From NCBI GenBank assembly GCA_024643645.1, contig JAHEMN010000011.1, positions 8,766 to 44,751 on the forward strand: a stretch of DNA of 35,986 nucleotides, given 5' to 3'. Below, in pieces: positions 12,050 to 22,973 of the stretch. This DNA is from Chitinophagaceae bacterium (GTDB lineage Bacteria > Bacteroidota > Bacteroidia > Chitinophagales > Chitinophagaceae). Below the pieces are notes generated by a model. That model ran no database searches. It saw only the letters and a list, made by a program, of their open reading frames with translations, and had not been told where the DNA came from. Every line of letters starts with the position of its first letter. Positions within the stretch are counted from its first letter, which is position 1. The position numbers and the translations under genes are program-made.

Positions 12050-15000
12050 TTACATGTTCCTTCTATATTGTCCTCCCACTTCATATAATGCATGAGTGAT
12101 CTGACCTAAAGAACAATATTTTACGGTCTCCATCAATTCTTCAAACAGGTTTCCATTATTGATCGCAACTTTCCTTAGCCTGGCCAACATTTCAAAAGAT
12201 TTGTCTTCATTCCTTTTCCAGAATGCTTTCAGATTACTGATCTGCAATTCCTTTTCTTCAGTAGTGCTTCTTATAACTTCTGTCGGTAAAATTGTCGGAC
12301 TGCCTTTTTTATTTAAAAAAGTATTGACACCAACTAAAGGCAACTCTCCTGAATGTTTCTGGTGTTCATAATACAAGCTTTCTTCCTGTATCTTATTACG
12401 CTGATACATTCTTTCCATTGAACCCAGCACCCCGCCTCTTTCTGTGATACGGTCAAACTCAGCCAGCACTGCTTCTTCAACAAGATCAGTCAGTTCTTCA
12501 ATTAAAAATGAGCCCTGGTTGGGATTTTCATTTTTTGCTGTACCTAGTTCCCTGTTAATTATTAACTGAATAGCCATTGCACGGCGTACACTTTCTTCCG
12601 TTGGCGTTGTTATAGCTTCATCATACGCATTTGTGTGTAGCGAATTGCAATTATCATAAATGGCATACAATGCCTGTAAAGTTGTTCTTATATCATTGAA
12701 GTCAATTTCCTGCGCATGCAAACTTCTTCCCGATGTTTGGATATGATATTTCAACATCTGGCTACGCTTATTTGCCTTGTACTTATATTTCATTGCCTTA
12801 GACCATATTCTTCTTGCTACTCTGCCGATCACACTATATTCTGCATCCATACCATTACTAAAGAAGAAAGAAAGATTTGGAGCAAAATCATCAATATTCA
12901 TCCCACGGCTTAAATAATATTCCACATACGTAAAGCCATTGGATAAAGTAAAGGCCAATTGCGTAATGGGATTAGCTCCGGCTTCAGCAATATGGTATCC
13001 GCTGATAGAAACAGAGTAAAAATTTCTTACTTTCTGTTTAATGAAATACTCCTGTACATCACCCATCAACTTCAATGCAAACTCTGTAGAGAAGATACAA
13101 GTATTCTGTGCCTGGTCTTCCTTTAATATATCCGCTTGTACCGTTCCTCTCACCTGTGTCAAAGCAGCCGCTTTTATTGTTTCATACACGTCTGCAGGTA
13201 AAACATCTGCACCTGATAAACCGAGTAAACGTAATCCCAACCCGTTATTACCGGCAGGTAATGCCCCTTTTAATTCTCCTTTTTGAGGTAGTACAGGCTT
13301 ACTATCAACACCCATATAAAACGGCAGCTCACCATTTTTATATTTTGATTCTATGACCTTATTTACTTCGTCCCTTAAGTTATTTTCAATAATATATTTT
13401 TCACATTGCTGATCAATAGCCGCATTCATAAAAAATGCAAGCAACATTGGAGCCGGACCGTTGATGGTCATAGAAACCGATGTTTTCGGATCACAAAGAT
13501 CAAAACCACTGTATAGCTTTTTTGCATCATCAACTGTTGCAATACTTACTCCGCTATTACCTACTTTTCCATAAATATCCGGACGAGGATCCGGATCTTC
13601 TCCATATAATGTAACACTGTCAAATGCTGTAGATAATCTTTTTGCCGGCTGATCCACACTTACATAATGAAACCTTCTGTTTGTTCTTTCCGGTCCACCT
13701 TCTCCTGCAAACATTCTTGTTGGATCTTCCCCTTCTCTTTTTAATGGAAACACACCGGCAGTAAAAGGAAAGTGCCCGGGTACATTTTCCTGTGCCTGCC
13801 ATTTCAAAATATCACCCCAATCTTTATACTTAGGCAATACTACTTTGGGGATTCTTGTACCACTCAGACTTTTAGTGGTCATCGATTGCTTAATCACCCT
13901 GTCTCTTACAGTATACTCATAAAAGTCTTTCTGATATTCCGCAACCTTATTAGGCCAGTTTGTAATTAACTTTTTAGCAACAGGAGTTAATTGCTCCGTA
14001 AAAAAATCAATTTGCTTTTGAATTATTTCAATTAATGCTTTATCAGCTTTTGTTTTTAAAATTTCCAGTGATCCGTTCAATTGATAAAGTTTAGTAGCAA
14101 ATTCTGACTGATCTTTTACCAATTGATCATACCCCCTGTTATTCTCAGCTATTTCAGATAAATACCTGGTACGGCTGGATGGAATTACCGCTTGAGAAAC
14201 CTTGGCAGTTTCAGCAAAATGGTATTCACCAAATTTTACAGATGTTTTAGCTTCAATTTTTTTCAATAACATTTCAAAAAGATGATTTACACCATCATCA
14301 TTGAACTTGCTGGCCATAGTACCTATCACCGGTATATCCTCATCCTTTGCAGTAAATAACTGGTGATTTCTTTTGTATTGCTTTTTCACATCCTGCAACG
14401 CATCTAATGCCCCCGCTTTATCAAACTTATTGATACAGATAATATCAGCATAGTCAAGCATGTTTATCTTTTCCAGTTGTGATGCCGCTCCATACTCTGG
14501 TGTCATTATATACATACTTACATCACAATAATCTAAAATCGATGCATCACTTTGTCCTACACCTGCTGATTCAAGAATTATCAAATCGAAATTCGCATCC
14601 TTACAAATATCGATTGCCTCCTGCATAGCTCCGCTTAATGCTGTATTATCATCTCGTGTTGCCAAACTCCTCATATATGCTCTTGGATGAGAAATTGCAT
14701 TCATTCTTATTCTATCACCTAACAATGCTCCACCGGTTTTTTTCTTTGAGGGATCTACTGAGATAACTGCAATGGTCTTATCCAAAAAATTATTTAAGAA
14801 GCGTCTTACTATTTCATCAGTAACAGATGATTTACCAGCACCTCCCGTTCCGGTAATGCCAAGTACAGGTATTTTAGTTGTTGGTTTTGCTAATGAAAGT
14901 TTTATACCATTTTCGGCATTTGTAATATTCCTGGCTATTACCCGTACATCTTTTACTTCTCCCAGTTTCATAGCAGTTTTATAATCTGCTTGTCCGTTCA

Positions 15001-15427
15001 ATGCTATATCACATTGTTTTATTACATCTTCGATCATTCCTTCCAGTCCCATTTTTCTTCCATCATCCGGGCTATATATCCTGGATATTCCATATTGATG
15101 AAGCTCTTCAATTTCTTCGGGTAAAATTGTTCCACCACCACCACCAAATATTTTTATATGGCCGCATTCGTTTTCATCAAGCAGGTCTTTCATGTATTTA
15201 AAGAACTCAATATGCCCGCCCTGGTAACTGGTAATGGCAATACCCTGCACATCTTCTTCAATGGCTGTTTCTACGATCTCTTTAACCGAACGGTTGTGAC
15301 CAAGATGTATGATCTCCGCTCCTTTGCTCTGCATTATGCGTCGCATTACATTAATTGCAGCATCATGCCCATCAAATAAACTGGCTGCCGTTACAATTCT
15401 TACTTTATTGGAAGGTGTATAACTCAT
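12050..15427 (-). CDS. icmF: Fused isobutyryl-CoA mutase IcmF
   Basis: The adenosylcobalamin enzyme rearranges isobutyryl-CoA and n-butyryl-CoA. The start is ATG at 15427; the longer open frame to 15550 lies beyond the predicted promoter and has no homologous N terminus. The 1125-residue protein shows the IcmF order: B12-binding domain (about 8-140, SLFDGHDAA with His21 as the expected cobalt ligand, FGGGGG), G-protein chaperone domain of MeaI type (about 185-400, P-loop [12 protein letters not shown] at 190-201), and mutase barrel (about 520 to end). The residue that separates isobutyryl- from methylmalonyl-CoA mutases, Tyr in MCM, is Phe573 in TRMFAGEG, which supports butyryl substrates. 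[18 protein letters not shown] is near-identical to the known IcmF barrel. The gene is divergent from the kinase-RapZ gene, with 85 bases between the starts. Confidence 0.95.
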
Positions 15428-15442
15428 AATTATTATAAAAGG

Positions 15443-15450
15443 CAAATTTA
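15443..15450 (-). promoter_or_regulatory. -7 promoter element of icmF (TAAATTTG)
   Basis: Read on the minus strand, this is TAAATTTG, a full match to the Bacteroidota housekeeping -7 consensus TAnnTTTG, 15 bases before the icmF ATG. It supports the ATG at 15427. No clear -33 TTG was found at the right distance, so the assignment is moderate. Confidence 0.5.
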
Positions 15451-15477
15451 AACTTAAATAGCTAATGACCGTTAGTC

Positions 15478-15508
15478 TTGCTGACGGCAATTCAATTCGG
15501 TACATTTG
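15478..15508 (+). promoter_or_regulatory. Promoter of kinase-RapZ gene, TTG-N20-TACATTTG
   Basis: TTG at 15478-15480 and TACATTTG at 15501-15508 are separated by 20 bases, the Bacteroidota -33/-7 pattern. The -7 element ends only 4 bases before the ATG at 15513, so transcription would begin at or near the start codon and the mRNA would be leaderless or nearly so. Confidence 0.55.
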
Positions 15509-15512
15509 CAAA

Positions 15513-16979
15513 ATGCAGCATCTTTTAGAAAAAATTGCATCATTATACAAGCAGTGGAAAGGAATTGAGCCGGTATCAATTGAGATATTACCACAAAGTG
15601 GCAGTGAAAGACGTTATTTCCGTTTATTTGGTAAAACAGAATCTGTCATAGGCACCTATGGAGCCAATATCAAAGAGAACAAAACGTTTTTTTATTTCTC
15701 AAAAGAATTTAAAAAGAAAAATCTACCTGTTGCAGAAATATATGCAATTAGTGAAGATGAAATGTATTATATACAGGAAGATTTTGGGAGCATCTCTTTA
15801 CTAAACCATCTTGAAGCAAAAGGTTTTTCCAATGAAGTTTATAACCTTTTCAAAAAAAGCTTAGAGGCACTTGCAAACTTACAGGTGAAAGGAGATGAAG
15901 GTTTAAATTATGACTACTGTCTTACCAATAAAGAATTTGGTAAACAGGCCATTATGGCTGATCTGCTTTATTTCAAATATTATTTCCTTGATGCTCTGCG
16001 TAAACCTTACGACAAGCAAAACCTGATCAATGATTTTGAAGCACTAAGTAATTACCTCACCCACACTGAATATAAATATTTTATGTTCAGAGATTTCCAG
16101 AGCAGAAATATCATGGTAAAAGATGATAACAGTGTACATTTTATCGATTACCAGGGTGGCATGAAGGGTGCTCCGCAGTACGATGTTGCATCCATGTTAT
16201 GGCAGGCAAGAGCTAACCTTCCGAATGACTGGAAAAATAATTTACTGGAAGATTATATGAATTGTTTTGAAAATATTATTGGTCAAAAAATTGATAAGAA
16301 TATTTTCCAAAGCCAGTATAACGGATATGTGTTGATTCGTCTATTACAAGTATTAGGTGCATATGGTTTCCGGGGTCTATTTGAAAGAAAAGCACAGTTC
16401 CTTACAAGTATACCCTTGGCATTAAACAATTTAAAAGAATTTTTAAAAAATCATAGTCTTGGCATTTCAGTTCCTGAATTCAGAAAGGTACTAGATATGT
16501 GTCTTGCAAGTGAAGTTATCGAACAATTTACACCCACTCAGGCAACCGGTGATACTCCTTTGATTGTAAAGATTTGCAGCTTCTCCTATCGCAAACAAAT
16601 ACCTGAAGACAATAGTGGGAATGGCGGTGGATTTCTTTTTGATTGCAGAGGAATATTAAATCCTGGTCGTATTGACTCTATGAAAACGCAAACAGGGAGA
16701 GATAAAGATGTTATTGATTATTTGGAACAACAAACCAAAATGCCGGAATTCCTCAACAGTGTAATGGATGTGGTAGATATTACTGTGGAAGAATACATAA
16801 AACGGGGATTTGAAAGCTTATTGGTTGGATTTGGATGTACCGGTGGCCAGCACAGAAGTGTGTATGCCGCTGACGCAATGGCAAGGCATTTAAAAAATAA
16901 GTTCAAAGTAAAAGTTGAATTAAACCATATTGTTCAGGAAGAAAAAAATTGGCTGAATCCGCTACCTGAAAAAAAATGA
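15513..16979 (+). CDS. Sugar kinase (AmgK-like) fused to RapZ C-terminal domain
   Basis: The 488-residue product joins two domains not usually found together in characterised proteins. Residues 1-330 form an aminoglycoside-phosphotransferase-fold kinase resembling AmgK, the anomeric MurNAc/GlcNAc kinase. [13 protein letters not shown] supplies catalytic Asp194 and Asn199, and [20 protein letters not shown] supplies Asp212. Residues 350-480 match the C-terminal domain of RapZ, which in E. coli binds glucosamine-6-phosphate: [12 protein letters not shown] (374-385), TGRD (394-397) and [14 protein letters not shown] (441-454). The RapZ P-loop ATPase half is absent. A MurU-like nucleotidyltransferase follows, as in the AmgK-MurU pathway that makes UDP-MurNAc from recycled MurNAc. 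The kinase may therefore be regulated by an amino-sugar phosphate. ATG at 15513 fits the promoter, whereas a start at 15465 would lie upstream of it. Fusion and kinase folds are clear; the substrate is inferred. Confidence 0.88.
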
Positions 16980-17145: not shown

Positions 17146-17871
17146 ATGAAAGCAATGATATTCAGTGCCGGACTCGGCACCAGATTTAAACCATGGACCA
17201 ATAAACATCCAAAAGCATTGGCAATTGTTAATGGCAAATCATTGTTACAAAGAAATATTGAATACTTACAACAATACGGAGTAAAAGATATAATTGTCAA
17301 TGTTCATCATTTTGCAGATCAGATTGAAGAGGCGCTACAAAAACATAATGGCTGGGGTAGTAACATAATTATCAGTGACGAAAGAAATGAAGTATTGGAA
17401 ACAGGAGGTGGTTTACTGAACGCAAAAAAATTATTCAAACCCGGTGAGAGATTTATTACCTGCAATGTTGATATACTTACCAATCTCGACATCAGTAAAT
17501 TGTTGAAATTACATGAAGAAAGTAATGCTTTGATATCCTTTGGTGTTACAGACCGCAAAACTTCCCGATATCTTTTATTTGATGAAACGATGCGACTTTG
17601 CGGATGGAGAAATAAGAATACAGGCGAAGAAAAGATCTCCATTCAAAAATCCGATCTTGTTGAAAAAGCTTATAGTTGTGTAGTTATTTTTGAATATGAT
17701 ATTTTCAAATTGATGGAAGAATATAACTTTTCAGGCAAATTTTCACTGATCGATGTATATCTTAAATTAGCAAGCAACCACCTAATAAAAGGCTTTGATC
17801 ATACCGGTGACAAGCTTGTGGATGTAGGAAAACCAGAAAGTGTTGCTATTGCTGAGTCAATTTTTATATAA
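17146..17871 (+). CDS. Nucleotidyltransferase, MurU-like (sugar-1-phosphate)
   Basis: The 241-residue protein has the nucleotidyl-transferase fold. MKAMIFSAGLGTRFKPW (residues 1-17) is the GxGTR nucleotide-binding loop, HPKALAIVNGKSLL holds the lysine of the PKxL motif, and ITCNVDILTNLD supplies the metal-binding Asp. Size, lack of a LbH repeat domain and the closing GDKLVDVGKPES fit MurU and other short sugar-1-phosphate uridylyl-/guanylyl-transferases, not GlmU or RfbA. MurU makes UDP-MurNAc from MurNAc-1-phosphate after AmgK. Its neighbour here is the AmgK-like kinase, which supports that role. GDP-mannose or other NDP-sugar synthesis cannot be excluded from sequence. A weak stem GTATT-GCA-AATAC followed by CTTTT after the stop (17873-17890) might be a terminator. 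Confidence 0.82.
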   Translation: MKAMIFSAGLGTRFKPWTNKHPKALAIVNGKSLLQRNIEYLQQYGVKDIIVNVHHFADQIEEALQKHNGWGSNIIISDERNEVLETGGGLLNAKKLFKPGERFITCNVDILTNLDISKLLKLHEESNALISFGVTDRKTSRYLLFDETMRLCGWRNKNTGEEKISIQKSDLVEKAYSCVVIFEYDIFKLMEEYNFSGKFSLIDVYLKLASNHLIKGFDHTGDKLVDVGKPESVAIAESIFI

Positions 17872-20762: not shown

Positions 20763-22319
20763 ATGGAATCAAAAAACTTATTCAAAGAAATTAAAAGCGA
20801 TTTACCTGCGAGTATTGTTGTATTTTTTGTAGCAGTACCATTGTGTTTAGGCATTGCATTGGCATCCGGAGCACCTTTATTTTCAGGTATCATTGCCGGA
20901 ATTGTAGGTGGAATAATCGTTGGTATTGCCAGTGGTTCACCGCTCGGCGTAAGCGGACCTGCAGCAGGTTTGGCTGTTATTGTATTGACAGCAATTACTT
21001 CTTTGGGTTCATGGCCTGCTTTTTTACTAGCAGTCGTTATAGCTGGTGTTATTCAACTAATTCTAGGCTATGCAAAGGCTGGTTTCATAGCATTTTTCTT
21101 TCCGACTTCAGTTATTAAAGGTATGTTAACCGGTATTGGCTTGTTAATAATACTCAAACAAATTCCTCATGCTTTGGGATATGACAAAGATGCTGAAGGG
21201 GATTTTTCATTTTTACAAATGGATGGAGAAAACACCTTTTCAGAATTAGGTAATGCATTGAACTTTATAACTCCTGGTGCCTTATTAATTGCAGCAATAT
21301 CACTTGCTATTTTAATACTCTGGGATGTTGTTTTAACAAAAAAGCATAAAATATTTCAACTTATTCAGGGACCAGTAGTAGTTGTGGTTTTTGGAATAAT
21401 AATGTATAACTTATTCCAGAATGGAACGTTGAATTTTACTCTGGCTTCAGATCAGGTTGTAAATATTCCTGTTCCAGCGGACCTATCAGATTTTTTCAAT
21501 CAATTTACATTCCCTGATTTTTCAGCTATCACCAATTTTAAAATATGGGAAGTTGCTGTAGTACTTGCAATTGTTGCCAGCCTTGAAACACTTTTATGTG
21601 TTGAAGCAACAGATAAATTAGACCCATTTAAAAGAATAACACCTACAAACAGAGAGCTAAAAGCTCAAGGTTTAGGAAATATTGCTTCGGGATTAATTGG
21701 CGGATTACCAGTTACCCAGGTTATCGTTAGAAGTTCAGCGAATATCAATTTTGGAGGTAAAACAAAAATATCTGCAATTCTACATGGAGTCTTCCTTTTA
21801 CTAAGTGCTTTAACAATTGCAAGTCTGTTAAATATGATCCCATTAGCAAGTCTTGCAGCCATATTATTAATGGTAGGTTACAAACTTGCTAAACCTTCAT
21901 TATTCAAACAAATGTATAAAATGGGTTGGGAACAATTCATTCCATTTGTTGCGACAGTGGTAGGAATTCTTGCAACAGACCTATTAAAAGGAATTACAAT
22001 AGGTATGCTGTTTGGTATATTCTATACATTAAGACATAGCTATCGCAATGCGTATCACATGAAAGATGTTATTACAACTGAAGATGGGCATGAAGTACAT
22101 CATCTTGTATTGGCTGAAGAAGTTTCGTTTTTTAATAAAGCAAGTGTGATAAAAGCCTTGGATAATATTCCGGACAATGCAAAAGTTATCATTGATTGTA
22201 CCCAATCAAAATCAATCGCACATGATGTATTAGAACTTATTAAAAACTTTGAAAGCAATGCAAAGACAAAGAATATCACCGTTGAAAAAATAAACTTTAT
22301 AGAACCGGTATTACTTTAA
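20763..22319 (+). CDS. SulP-family anion transporter with STAS domain (probable bicarbonate)
   Basis: The 518-residue protein has 10-14 hydrophobic segments of the SulP/SLC26 fold. Signature stretches are SGSPLGVSGPAAGLAVIV near TM3, ATDKLDPFKRITPTNRELKA with QGLGNIASGLIGGLPVTQVI in the middle, and a C-terminal STAS domain (from about residue 435, VHHLVLAEEVSFFNKAS and AKVIIDCTQSKSIAHDVLEL). The carbonic anhydrase gene follows 12 bases after the stop, a combination seen in bicarbonate-importing SulP proteins, so HCO3- is the likely substrate; sulfate cannot be excluded. The product sits in the inner membrane. Expression is probably controlled by the divergent TetR gene through the palindrome upstream. 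Confidence 0.9.
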   Translation: MESKNLFKEIKSDLPASIVVFFVAVPLCLGIALASGAPLFSGIIAGIVGGIIVGIASGSPLGVSGPAAGLAVIVLTAITSLGSWPAFLLAVVIAGVIQLILGYAKAGFIAFFFPTSVIKGMLTGIGLLIILKQIPHALGYDKDAEGDFSFLQMDGENTFSELGNALNFITPGALLIAAISLAILILWDVVLTKKHKIFQLIQGPVVVVVFGIIMYNLFQNGTLNFTLASDQVVNIPVPADLSDFFNQFTFPDFSAITNFKIWEVAVVLAIVASLETLLCVEATDKLDPFKRITPTNRELKAQGLGNIASGLIGGLPVTQVIVRSSANINFGGKTKISAILHGVFLLLSALTIASLLNMIPLASLAAILLMVGYKLAKPSLFKQMYKMGWEQFIPFVATVVGILATDLLKGITIGMLFGIFYTLRHSYRNAYHMKDVITTEDGHEVHHLVLAEEVSFFNKASVIKALDNIPDNAKVIIDCTQSKSIAHDVLELIKNFESNAKTKNITVEKINFIEPVLL

Positions 22320-22331
22320 AAAAAATAAAAA

Positions 22332-22973
22332 ATGAAGACATTAACAAAAGAAATGCAAACAGCCATCACTCCATCAAAGGCTCTTGAATTATTACAAGAT
22401 GGCAATAAGCGATTTGTCAGTAATCTGAAAATAAACAGAAACTTATTACAACAGGCAAATGAAACTTCTGATGGCCAGCATCCATTTGCTGTGATTCTTA
22501 GCTGTATTGATTCCCGTACTTCGGCTGAACTGATATTTGATCAGGGCCTGGGAGATATTTTCAGTGCCCGCATAGCAGGTAATATTGTTAATGAGGATAT
22601 ACTTGGTAGTATGGAATTTGCCTGTAAAGTTGCAGGTTCCAAAATTATTGTTGTGCTGGGTCACACAAAATGCGGAGCTGTAAAAGGTGCATGTGATCAT
22701 GTGGAAATGGGAAACCTTACTGCTTTATTAAGCAAAATACAACCAGCTGTTTACGATGAAAAAACAGTTGCTGATAATCGCAGCTCTTCAAATGCAGAGT
22801 TTGTTGAGAAAGTATCAACTATAAATGTAAAGCGTACTGTAAAAGCAATTATGGAGCGTAGTCCCATATTGAAAGAAATGATTGAAAAAGGAGAAATAGG
22901 AATCGTTGGCGGAACTCATGATATTGCTACCGGCGAAGTACTTTTTTATGAAGATGCATTGATTATCAATTAA
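22332..22973 (+). CDS. Beta-class carbonic anhydrase
   Basis: Catalyses CO2 + H2O to HCO3- + H+. The 213-residue protein has the beta-class zinc site: Cys58 with the Asp60-Arg62 dyad in SCIDSRTSAE, and His111 and Cys114 in GHTKCGAVKGAC. DIFSARIAGN and the GTHDIATGEV tail also fit. No signal peptide, so it is cytoplasmic. It would equilibrate the bicarbonate imported by the SulP transporter just upstream and supply it to carboxylases. The 12-base gap and shared strand imply one operon. A hairpin follows at 22989. Confidence 0.95.
   Translation: MKTLTKEMQTAITPSKALELLQDGNKRFVSNLKINRNLLQQANETSDGQHPFAVILSCIDSRTSAELIFDQGLGDIFSARIAGNIVNEDILGSMEFACKVAGSKIIVVLGHTKCGAVKGACDHVEMGNLTALLSKIQPAVYDEKTVADNRSSSNAEFVEKVSTINVKRTVKAIMERSPILKEMIEKGEIGIVGGTHDIATGEVLFYEDALIIN

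Follow-up and report, generated by a model that had tools for sequence, protein, structure and literature searches.

What does the C-terminal domain of RapZ do when it follows a sugar kinase of the AmgK type within a single protein? The question is raised by a gene in a Chitinophagaceae genome bin (contig JAHEMN010000011.1), lying in a stretch of 35,986 nucleotides which was analysed as a whole and is hereafter called the window; all coordinates are window positions. In MurNAc recycling, the product of AnmK is MurNAc-6-phosphate, AmgK requires unphosphorylated MurNAc, and AnmK acts before MupP, with AmgK and MurU acting after it. Pseudomonas MupP converts MurNAc-6-phosphate into MurNAc (PMC5371407), and the order of the Pseudomonas pathway, with AnmK before MupP and AmgK and MurU after, is given in part by the same source.

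We propose, tentatively and with slightly less than even confidence, that the fusion is a two-step MurNAc salvage protein, in which the RapZ C-terminal domain (RapZ-C) serves the kinase as a MurNAc-6-phosphate phosphatase. MurNAc-6-phosphate would come from AnmK or a different sugar 6-kinase, the Cys442...Arg448 loop of RapZ-C would strip the phosphate off it, the AmgK-type N-terminal kinase would then phosphorylate at C1 the MurNAc so released, and MurU, encoded next to the fusion, would lead on to UDP-MurNAc, so that RapZ-C would substitute for the HAD phosphatase MupP of Pseudomonas; here it is the substrate, the catalysis and the order of the steps that we infer. A phosphatase fits best, as unphosphorylated MurNAc is what the kinase should require and no other candidate for this step was recognised. 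If this is true, anabolic MurNAc recycling in a large bacterial group has its phosphatase step carried out by an enzyme unrelated to MupP, and an independent clue is gained to the role of the essential Cys247 in E. coli RapZ. In the open-access literature, subscription papers being outside the scope of the search, no title among those listed deals with a kinase–RapZ-C fusion, and no work treating RapZ together with AmgK was found. As far as that literature shows, the phosphatase-motif idea for RapZ already belongs to others, and the link to MurNAc-6-phosphate and to the kinase fusion is new.

Architecture and Predicted Structure of the Fusion

The reading frame (15513–16979, forward strand) translates into 488 residues with zero internal stops, and an ATG at 15465 is a possible alternative start upstream. 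Pfam recognises an APH-family kinase core at residues 62–248 (15696–16256, forward; PF01636, E 8e-8, 32.8 bits against a cut-off of 23.2) and the RapZ C-terminal domain, PapZ_C, at residues 351–472 (16563–16928, forward; PF22740, E 7.2e-32, 110.6 bits against a cut-off of 27). The NCBIfam RapZ model NF003828 matches with E 1e-28 and 100.6 bits, below its cut-off of 244 and over model positions 146–274 only, and by Pfam and Foldseek the N-terminal half is of APH type, with no RapZ N-terminal domain. For the kinase half the best enzyme-level NCBIfam match is AmgK (NF045759, E 8.2e-12), with 44.9 bits against an equivalog cut-off of 550; a second AmgK model, NF045698, gives 29.4 bits against 500. 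The fusion protein matches no HAD family in NCBIfam, and the likeness to the HAD-family enzyme MupP would lie solely in the proposed role, the step before AmgK, the fold being unrelated.

Searches with phmmer against solved chains connect the C-terminal part with three RapZ sequences and the kinase part with the putative aminoglycoside phosphotransferase 3csv (3e-4), the fifth match (E 0.81) being at chance level. AlphaFold2 models are confident both for the C-domain (pLDDT 92.1, pTM 0.87) and for the full-length protein (pLDDT 91.1, pTM 0.76). When compared by Foldseek, the full-length model retrieves APH-fold kinases (3csv, 6.6e-14), and the C-domain model retrieves solved RapZ chains at ranks 1–16 (E 3e-10 to 3e-5; TM 0.90 normalised on 5o5s), so that the structure comparison of the C-terminal part proposed in the initial annotation returned the RapZ fold. 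The fusion of a kinase with the RapZ C-terminal domain is real: it recurs in 40 surveyed genomes, which excludes an assembly chimaera, and the initial description of the gene as an AmgK-type kinase joined to the C-terminal half of RapZ is borne out by Pfam, Foldseek and this recurrence alike. Both domains should show up in Pfam-based annotation.

With E. coli RapZ (PDB 5o5s, 5o5q, 8b0i) the protein shares the C-terminal fold and the pocket loop CTGGxHRSVY, but it differs in its N-terminal APH-fold kinase, in a 5-residue insertion with GGG, and in having Gly at the place of His190 and Gln at that of Lys251. With AmgK, the MurNAc/GlcNAc anomeric kinase, it has in common the APH fold, the catalytic residues and a murU-like neighbour, whereas the score far under the equivalog cut-off and the extra C-terminal domain set it apart.

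Gene Neighbourhood and Distribution in the Phylum

Downstream of the fusion lies a murU-like gene (17146–17871, forward), whose best NCBIfam match is the MurNAc-1-phosphate uridylyltransferase MurU (NF045761, 1.8e-32, 113 bits, below the cut-off of 250), and owing to this gene the locus looks like one for salvage of MurNAc to UDP-MurNAc. In the survey described below, the fetched flank contains a murU-like gene at 34 of the 41 fused loci (the exceptions being those of G013, G017, G034, G128, G131, G253 and G370), at all 8 adjacent split loci and at 1 of the 6 unlinked loci; the link to cell-wall amino-sugar salvage made in the initial annotation is thereby supported.

The survey covered 392 genomes of the phylum, evenly drawn and with a completeness of at least 90. 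PF22740 was found in 54 of them, at 55 places. In a recount on fetched DNA of these 55 loci, 41 loci in 40 genomes carry the fusion, in 8 genomes RapZ-C is a gene of its own that adjoins a kinase gene of like orientation, 3 to 133 bases away, and in 6 others (G180, G271, G306, G325, G380 and G384) the RapZ-C flank contains no kinase, which gives the distribution of the fusion across Bacteroidota that had been called for at the outset. An alignment-based search for the kinase in the 392 genomes gave 122 positives, namely 55 close relatives (E < 1e-75), 65 divergent ones and 2 fragments of about 45 codons, the last (G203 and G336, both with AnmK and without RapZ-C) being excluded from the kinase count. 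All 65 divergent kinase genomes belong to one family, f18, and RapZ-C occurs in none of them. On the other hand, a close kinase accompanies RapZ-C in all 54 genomes, even in the six where the two are unlinked, and 54 of the 55 close-kinase genomes have RapZ-C, a co-inheritance that argues for the phosphatase. The sole close-kinase genome without RapZ-C, G009, has a murU-like gene directly after its kinase, and neither an AnmK nor a PF01869 match.

Frames with a RapZ_C match in the 54 genomes are either 134–169 or 476–536 codons long, with no frame of classical RapZ length among them, and RapZ of the E. coli type is therefore not seen in the 392-genome sample. A separate scan of named genomes yielded at least 594 relatives, of which 80 were kept; they include Chitinophagaceae, Saprospiraceae, Prolixibacteraceae, Labilibaculum and Mediterranea, as well as records labelled Calditrichia, Neomarinimicrobiota, Delongbacteria and Ignavibacteriales. 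Trees of the kinase and of RapZ-C, both built by a quick method, recover alike the f4 group, the f11/f12 group and the pairing of the window with a second locus (L002) from its own genome bin. They differ in the placement of G180, which joins f47 in the RapZ-C tree (98) but stands alone on a long branch in the kinase tree, and of G031, which joins G124 in the kinase tree (97) and is unplaced in the RapZ-C tree. The deep forks are weak, and the order in which fused and split forms arose is not readable from these trees. Genus g72 shows both states: in one species, G031 (L023/L063), RapZ-C has its own gene, 3 bases from that of the kinase, and in another, G124 (L022), the two are fused.

Conserved Residues and the Phosphate-Loop Motif

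Conservation was followed in two alignments, A1 with 23 rows, and A5 (as also A4) with the window and 39 loci hand-picked for identity spread from the 80 kept in the named-genome scan; of 41 loci so picked, two (L126 and L145) were excluded, since their match extended beyond a stop close to its end. The kinase catalytic loop RDFQSRN (residues 193–199; 16089–16109, forward) contains Asp194 and Asn199, which we take from the APH fold to be catalytic, and it is followed by Asp212 (16146–16148, forward), presumably metal-binding on the same grounds. All three residues, which the initial annotation had named as the kinase core, are invariant in the 23 rows of A1 and the 40 rows of A5, and the two motifs by which it had recognised the RapZ half, one of 11 residues and TGRD, are both present in the translation.

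CxxGxxR[ST] is the signature of cysteine-dependent phosphatases. The motif CTGGQHRS of the fusion (residues 442–449; 16836–16859, forward) fits this signature and sits between strand and helix, with Cys442 at the strand end and Arg448 at the helix start in both AlphaFold2 models. Residues C442, T443, G444, H447 and R448 are conserved in 23/23 rows of A1 and 40/40 of A5. Among the 80 named loci, 79 have CTGGxHRS; since the search pattern for these loci itself contained FGCTGGQH, conservation of the loop there is biased, and the unbiased count is that of the 55 loci found by HMM in 54 genomes, all of which carry the loop (CTGGQHRS in 54, CTGGRHRS in 1). This invariance, together with the strand-loop-helix geometry, speaks for a phosphatase, and the single named locus with His in place of the loop Arg (L137, reading HHS) speaks against it.

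The likeness to cysteine-dependent protein-tyrosine phosphatases (PTPs) is confined to the loop between strand and helix. A global PTP fold was considered and rejected: no PTP structure is found among the best 50 of 243 Foldseek matches of the C-domain model (E<=10), the first match after RapZ being PFKFB3 with E 0.19, and none in Pfam to E 10, where the HMMER filters drop most weak matches. The resemblance is therefore local, and the missing PTP fold among those best 50 matches counts against catalysis, as does the general acid, for which no residue was identified in the fusion. A further point against it is that the motif is common to E. coli RapZ, for which no demonstrated phosphatase activity was seen.

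In E. coli, the RapZ pocket is formed by H190, T248, G249, H252 and R253, with C247 beside it (PMC5737377, PMC9841335), and His190 is needed for RNA regulation (PMC9841335). That 2022 paper also states that C247A and C247S abolish RapZ activity, considers that the SH group might be catalytic, and reads the density in a crystal of the C-terminal domain with GlcN6P as a likely chemically transformed ligand (PMC9841335); homology of the pocket to the PTP phosphatase loop was noted in PMC7199280 (Khan and Gorke, as cited in PMC9841335).

The same comparison bears on whether the fusion might moonlight as an RNA adapter like RapZ. It has the fold of the RNA-binding half of RapZ, and the places of K170, R184 and R196 are mostly still basic in A1 and A5. 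However, the motif NPGR (residues 383–386; 16659–16670, forward) puts Gly385 at the place of His190, where Gly is found in 55 of 55 HMM-found loci; the place of Lys251 is Gln in 23/23 rows of A1 and 38/40 of A5, and that of Lys194 is mostly non-basic. With His190 and Lys251 lost, a kinase in place of the N-terminal half of RapZ, and no RapZ-length frame in the 54 genomes, RNA binding is very unlikely. Beside the 5-residue insertion placed by the alignment with E. coli RapZ, the residues GGG (371–373; 16623–16631, forward) are invariant in A1 and A5.

Asp377, the equivalent of E. coli D182, is likewise invariant in both alignments; Asp397 is also invariant and Asp366 nearly so, and the three are conceivable candidates for a general acid near Cys442. 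The C-terminal domain of RapZ dimerises and the D182A exchange breaks its self-interaction (PMC7073468, PMC5737377), so that RapZ-C might dimerise and only hold the kinase, perhaps near MurU. Such a scaffold would leave both the invariant CTGGxHRS loop and the co-occurrence of unlinked RapZ-C and kinase genes unexplained, and we consider it improbable.

Possible Sources and Outlets of MurNAc-6-Phosphate

A MurNAc-6-phosphate phosphatase would need a source of its substrate. AnmK is found in 288 of the 392 genomes surveyed, among them 36 of the 54 with RapZ-C (in G216 through a weak match). Every one of the 36 kinase genomes that possess AnmK also possesses RapZ-C, while among the 84 kinase genomes without AnmK RapZ-C is present in 18 and absent from 66 (the 65 of f18 and G009). 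Behind this contrast stand a single family, f18, and G009, which is a point against the phosphatase, and Fisher tests of the association ignore relatedness and are not taken as proof. Most AnmK genomes have neither kinase nor RapZ-C, so that AnmK alone is no predictor, and a role of AnmK as strict partner of RapZ-C is ruled out by the 18 of 54 RapZ-C genomes without it.

In 14 of these 18 genomes there is a strong match to a BadF/NagK-type kinase, which directly adjoins an AmpG-like permease in 13 and lies about 2.5 kb from it in the remaining stretch (L193); NagZ-like genes, one of them partial, are found in 6 of the 14 fetched stretches (L181–L194). The labels derive from L182, where the permease matches the AmpG family TIGR00901 at 183 bits (cut-off 350), the kinase matches NagK at 107 bits (cut-off 370), and a GH3 domain is over its cut-off; kinase and permease were also checked in L186, and the other stretches were labelled by similarity to L182. 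This kinase may stand in for AnmK where AnmK is lacking, and a substrate source thus present, as AnmK in 36 of 54 genomes and as a BadF/NagK-type kinase in 14 of the 18 others, argues for the phosphatase. Judged by their best NCBIfam match, NagK, which falls below its cut-off, these enzymes could equally be GlcNAc kinases, which argues against it. Further evidence against it comes from the remaining RapZ-C genomes without AnmK: G230, with a MurK-like gene adjoining MurQ, and G373, with a MurK-like gene, both show weak matches, and no NagK/MurK-like kinase was found in G337, where the PF01869 hit is a pantothenate kinase, or in G340, where the hits sit in a frame of 1406 codons. In G340, moreover, NamZ is encoded some 4 kb away from the fusion.

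The PF01869 search covered 29 of the 54 RapZ-C genomes, including all 18 without AnmK, as well as G009 and 30 of the 65 f18 genomes. Of the latter, 24 gave no hit over the cut-off and 6 gave strong hits, one of which (G071, L199) is an acyl-CoA dehydratase activase, the other five being judged by score and length only. In the f18 loci fetched, 5 of 65 (L174–L178), a compact gene row runs from the kinase to a nucleotidyltransferase, which in L174 has a hexapeptide tail, and on to a NamZ exo-muramidase and a sodium symporter, with no RapZ domain; the genes of L174 were identified by Pfam and those of the other four by similarity to L174. NamZ and the symporter at these loci suggest import of free MurNAc. 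Taken with the AnmK pattern, RapZ-C is suggested to act on, or respond to, something that arises with sugar 6-phosphates in recycling.

As for outlets, the MupP model NF009696 exceeds its cut-off in none of the 55 close-kinase genomes (best 101 of 359 bits), and the window's own genome gives no match to it at E<=0.001; the search had no positive control, since 0 of 14 control genomes passed the cut-off. MurQ is over its cut-off in 20 of the 55 genomes, the window's own included (G091, G292 and G388 lie just below), and is uninformative as a marker. Among the 36 AnmK genomes, 17 are without a MurQ-level match, and this, together with the MupP result, argues for a phosphatase in RapZ-C. Against it, the MupP search was without positive control, other HAD phosphatases could serve, and the genome of the window, which has AnmK, the fusion and a MurQ gene adjoining a weak MurK-like match, possesses in MurQ another outlet for MurNAc-6-phosphate.

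Catalysis or Ligand Sensing

GlcN6P is made in essentially all bacteria. It is thus to be expected in every genome, yet the f18 kinase lineage is without the domain, which tends to accompany kinases that could supply 6-phosphates from recycling, and GlcN6P is therefore the less favoured ligand. With Gly at the place of His190 in 55 of 55 loci as well, the initial idea that RapZ-C senses GlcN6P as in E. coli is not supported as stated. A wider version, in which the domain binds GlcN6P, MurNAc-6-phosphate or GlcNAc-6-phosphate and switches the kinase while leaving the ligand unchanged, is a serious if somewhat doubtful possibility. The isolated C-terminal domain of E. coli RapZ binds GlcN6P with a KD of 10 nM (PMC7073468), the places of T248, G249, H252 and R253 are conserved in A1 and A5, and allosteric control suits a domain joined to an enzyme from that same metabolism; in 6 of 54 genomes, however, RapZ-C persists as a separate gene away from the kinase, where a domain with an allosteric role alone would be less expected. 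A sensor responding to 6-phosphates from recycling accounts for the co-occurrence just as well: if it bound the same compound without catalysis it would be distributed identically, and it is for this reason that the phosphatase is put at just under even confidence and sensing is kept as a serious alternative. Should the domain be a sensor, wall-sugar salvage would be under allosteric control by a RapZ domain without RNA.

We favour catalysis over a GlcN6P sensor: given a loop like that of phosphatases and no match reaching the MupP level, gating is no likelier than catalysis. By extension, and with confidence clearly short of even, RapZ-C could be an ancestral cysteine-dependent amino-sugar-6-phosphate phosphatase, still at work in wall recycling in Bacteroidota and related phyla, from which E. 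coli RapZ would have been recruited for RNA regulation.

Further Observations

Some minor features of these loci may be recorded. In four of them (L053, L054, L056 and L057) a separate RapZ-C gene is followed by an MFS permease gene, with the kinase elsewhere in the genome; the permeases of L053 and L054 match MFS_1, and no NCBIfam family was found for those of L054 and L057. In the window, an ordinary IcmF, the fused isobutyryl-CoA mutase/GTPase (12050–15550, reverse strand; 1778 bits, over the cut-off), is divergent from the fusion. The same mutase neighbour recurs at L002 (G000:C119), on another contig of the same genome bin, where a second copy of the kinase–RapZ-C and murU-like genes is 84% identical; the contamination of the bin is 3.12%, and L002 may come from a relative sorted into the same bin instead of being a genuine duplicate. 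Further along the window (20763–22973, forward), a SulP-type permease, scoring below its cut-off, is followed by a gene that resembles a beta-carbonic anhydrase by eye.
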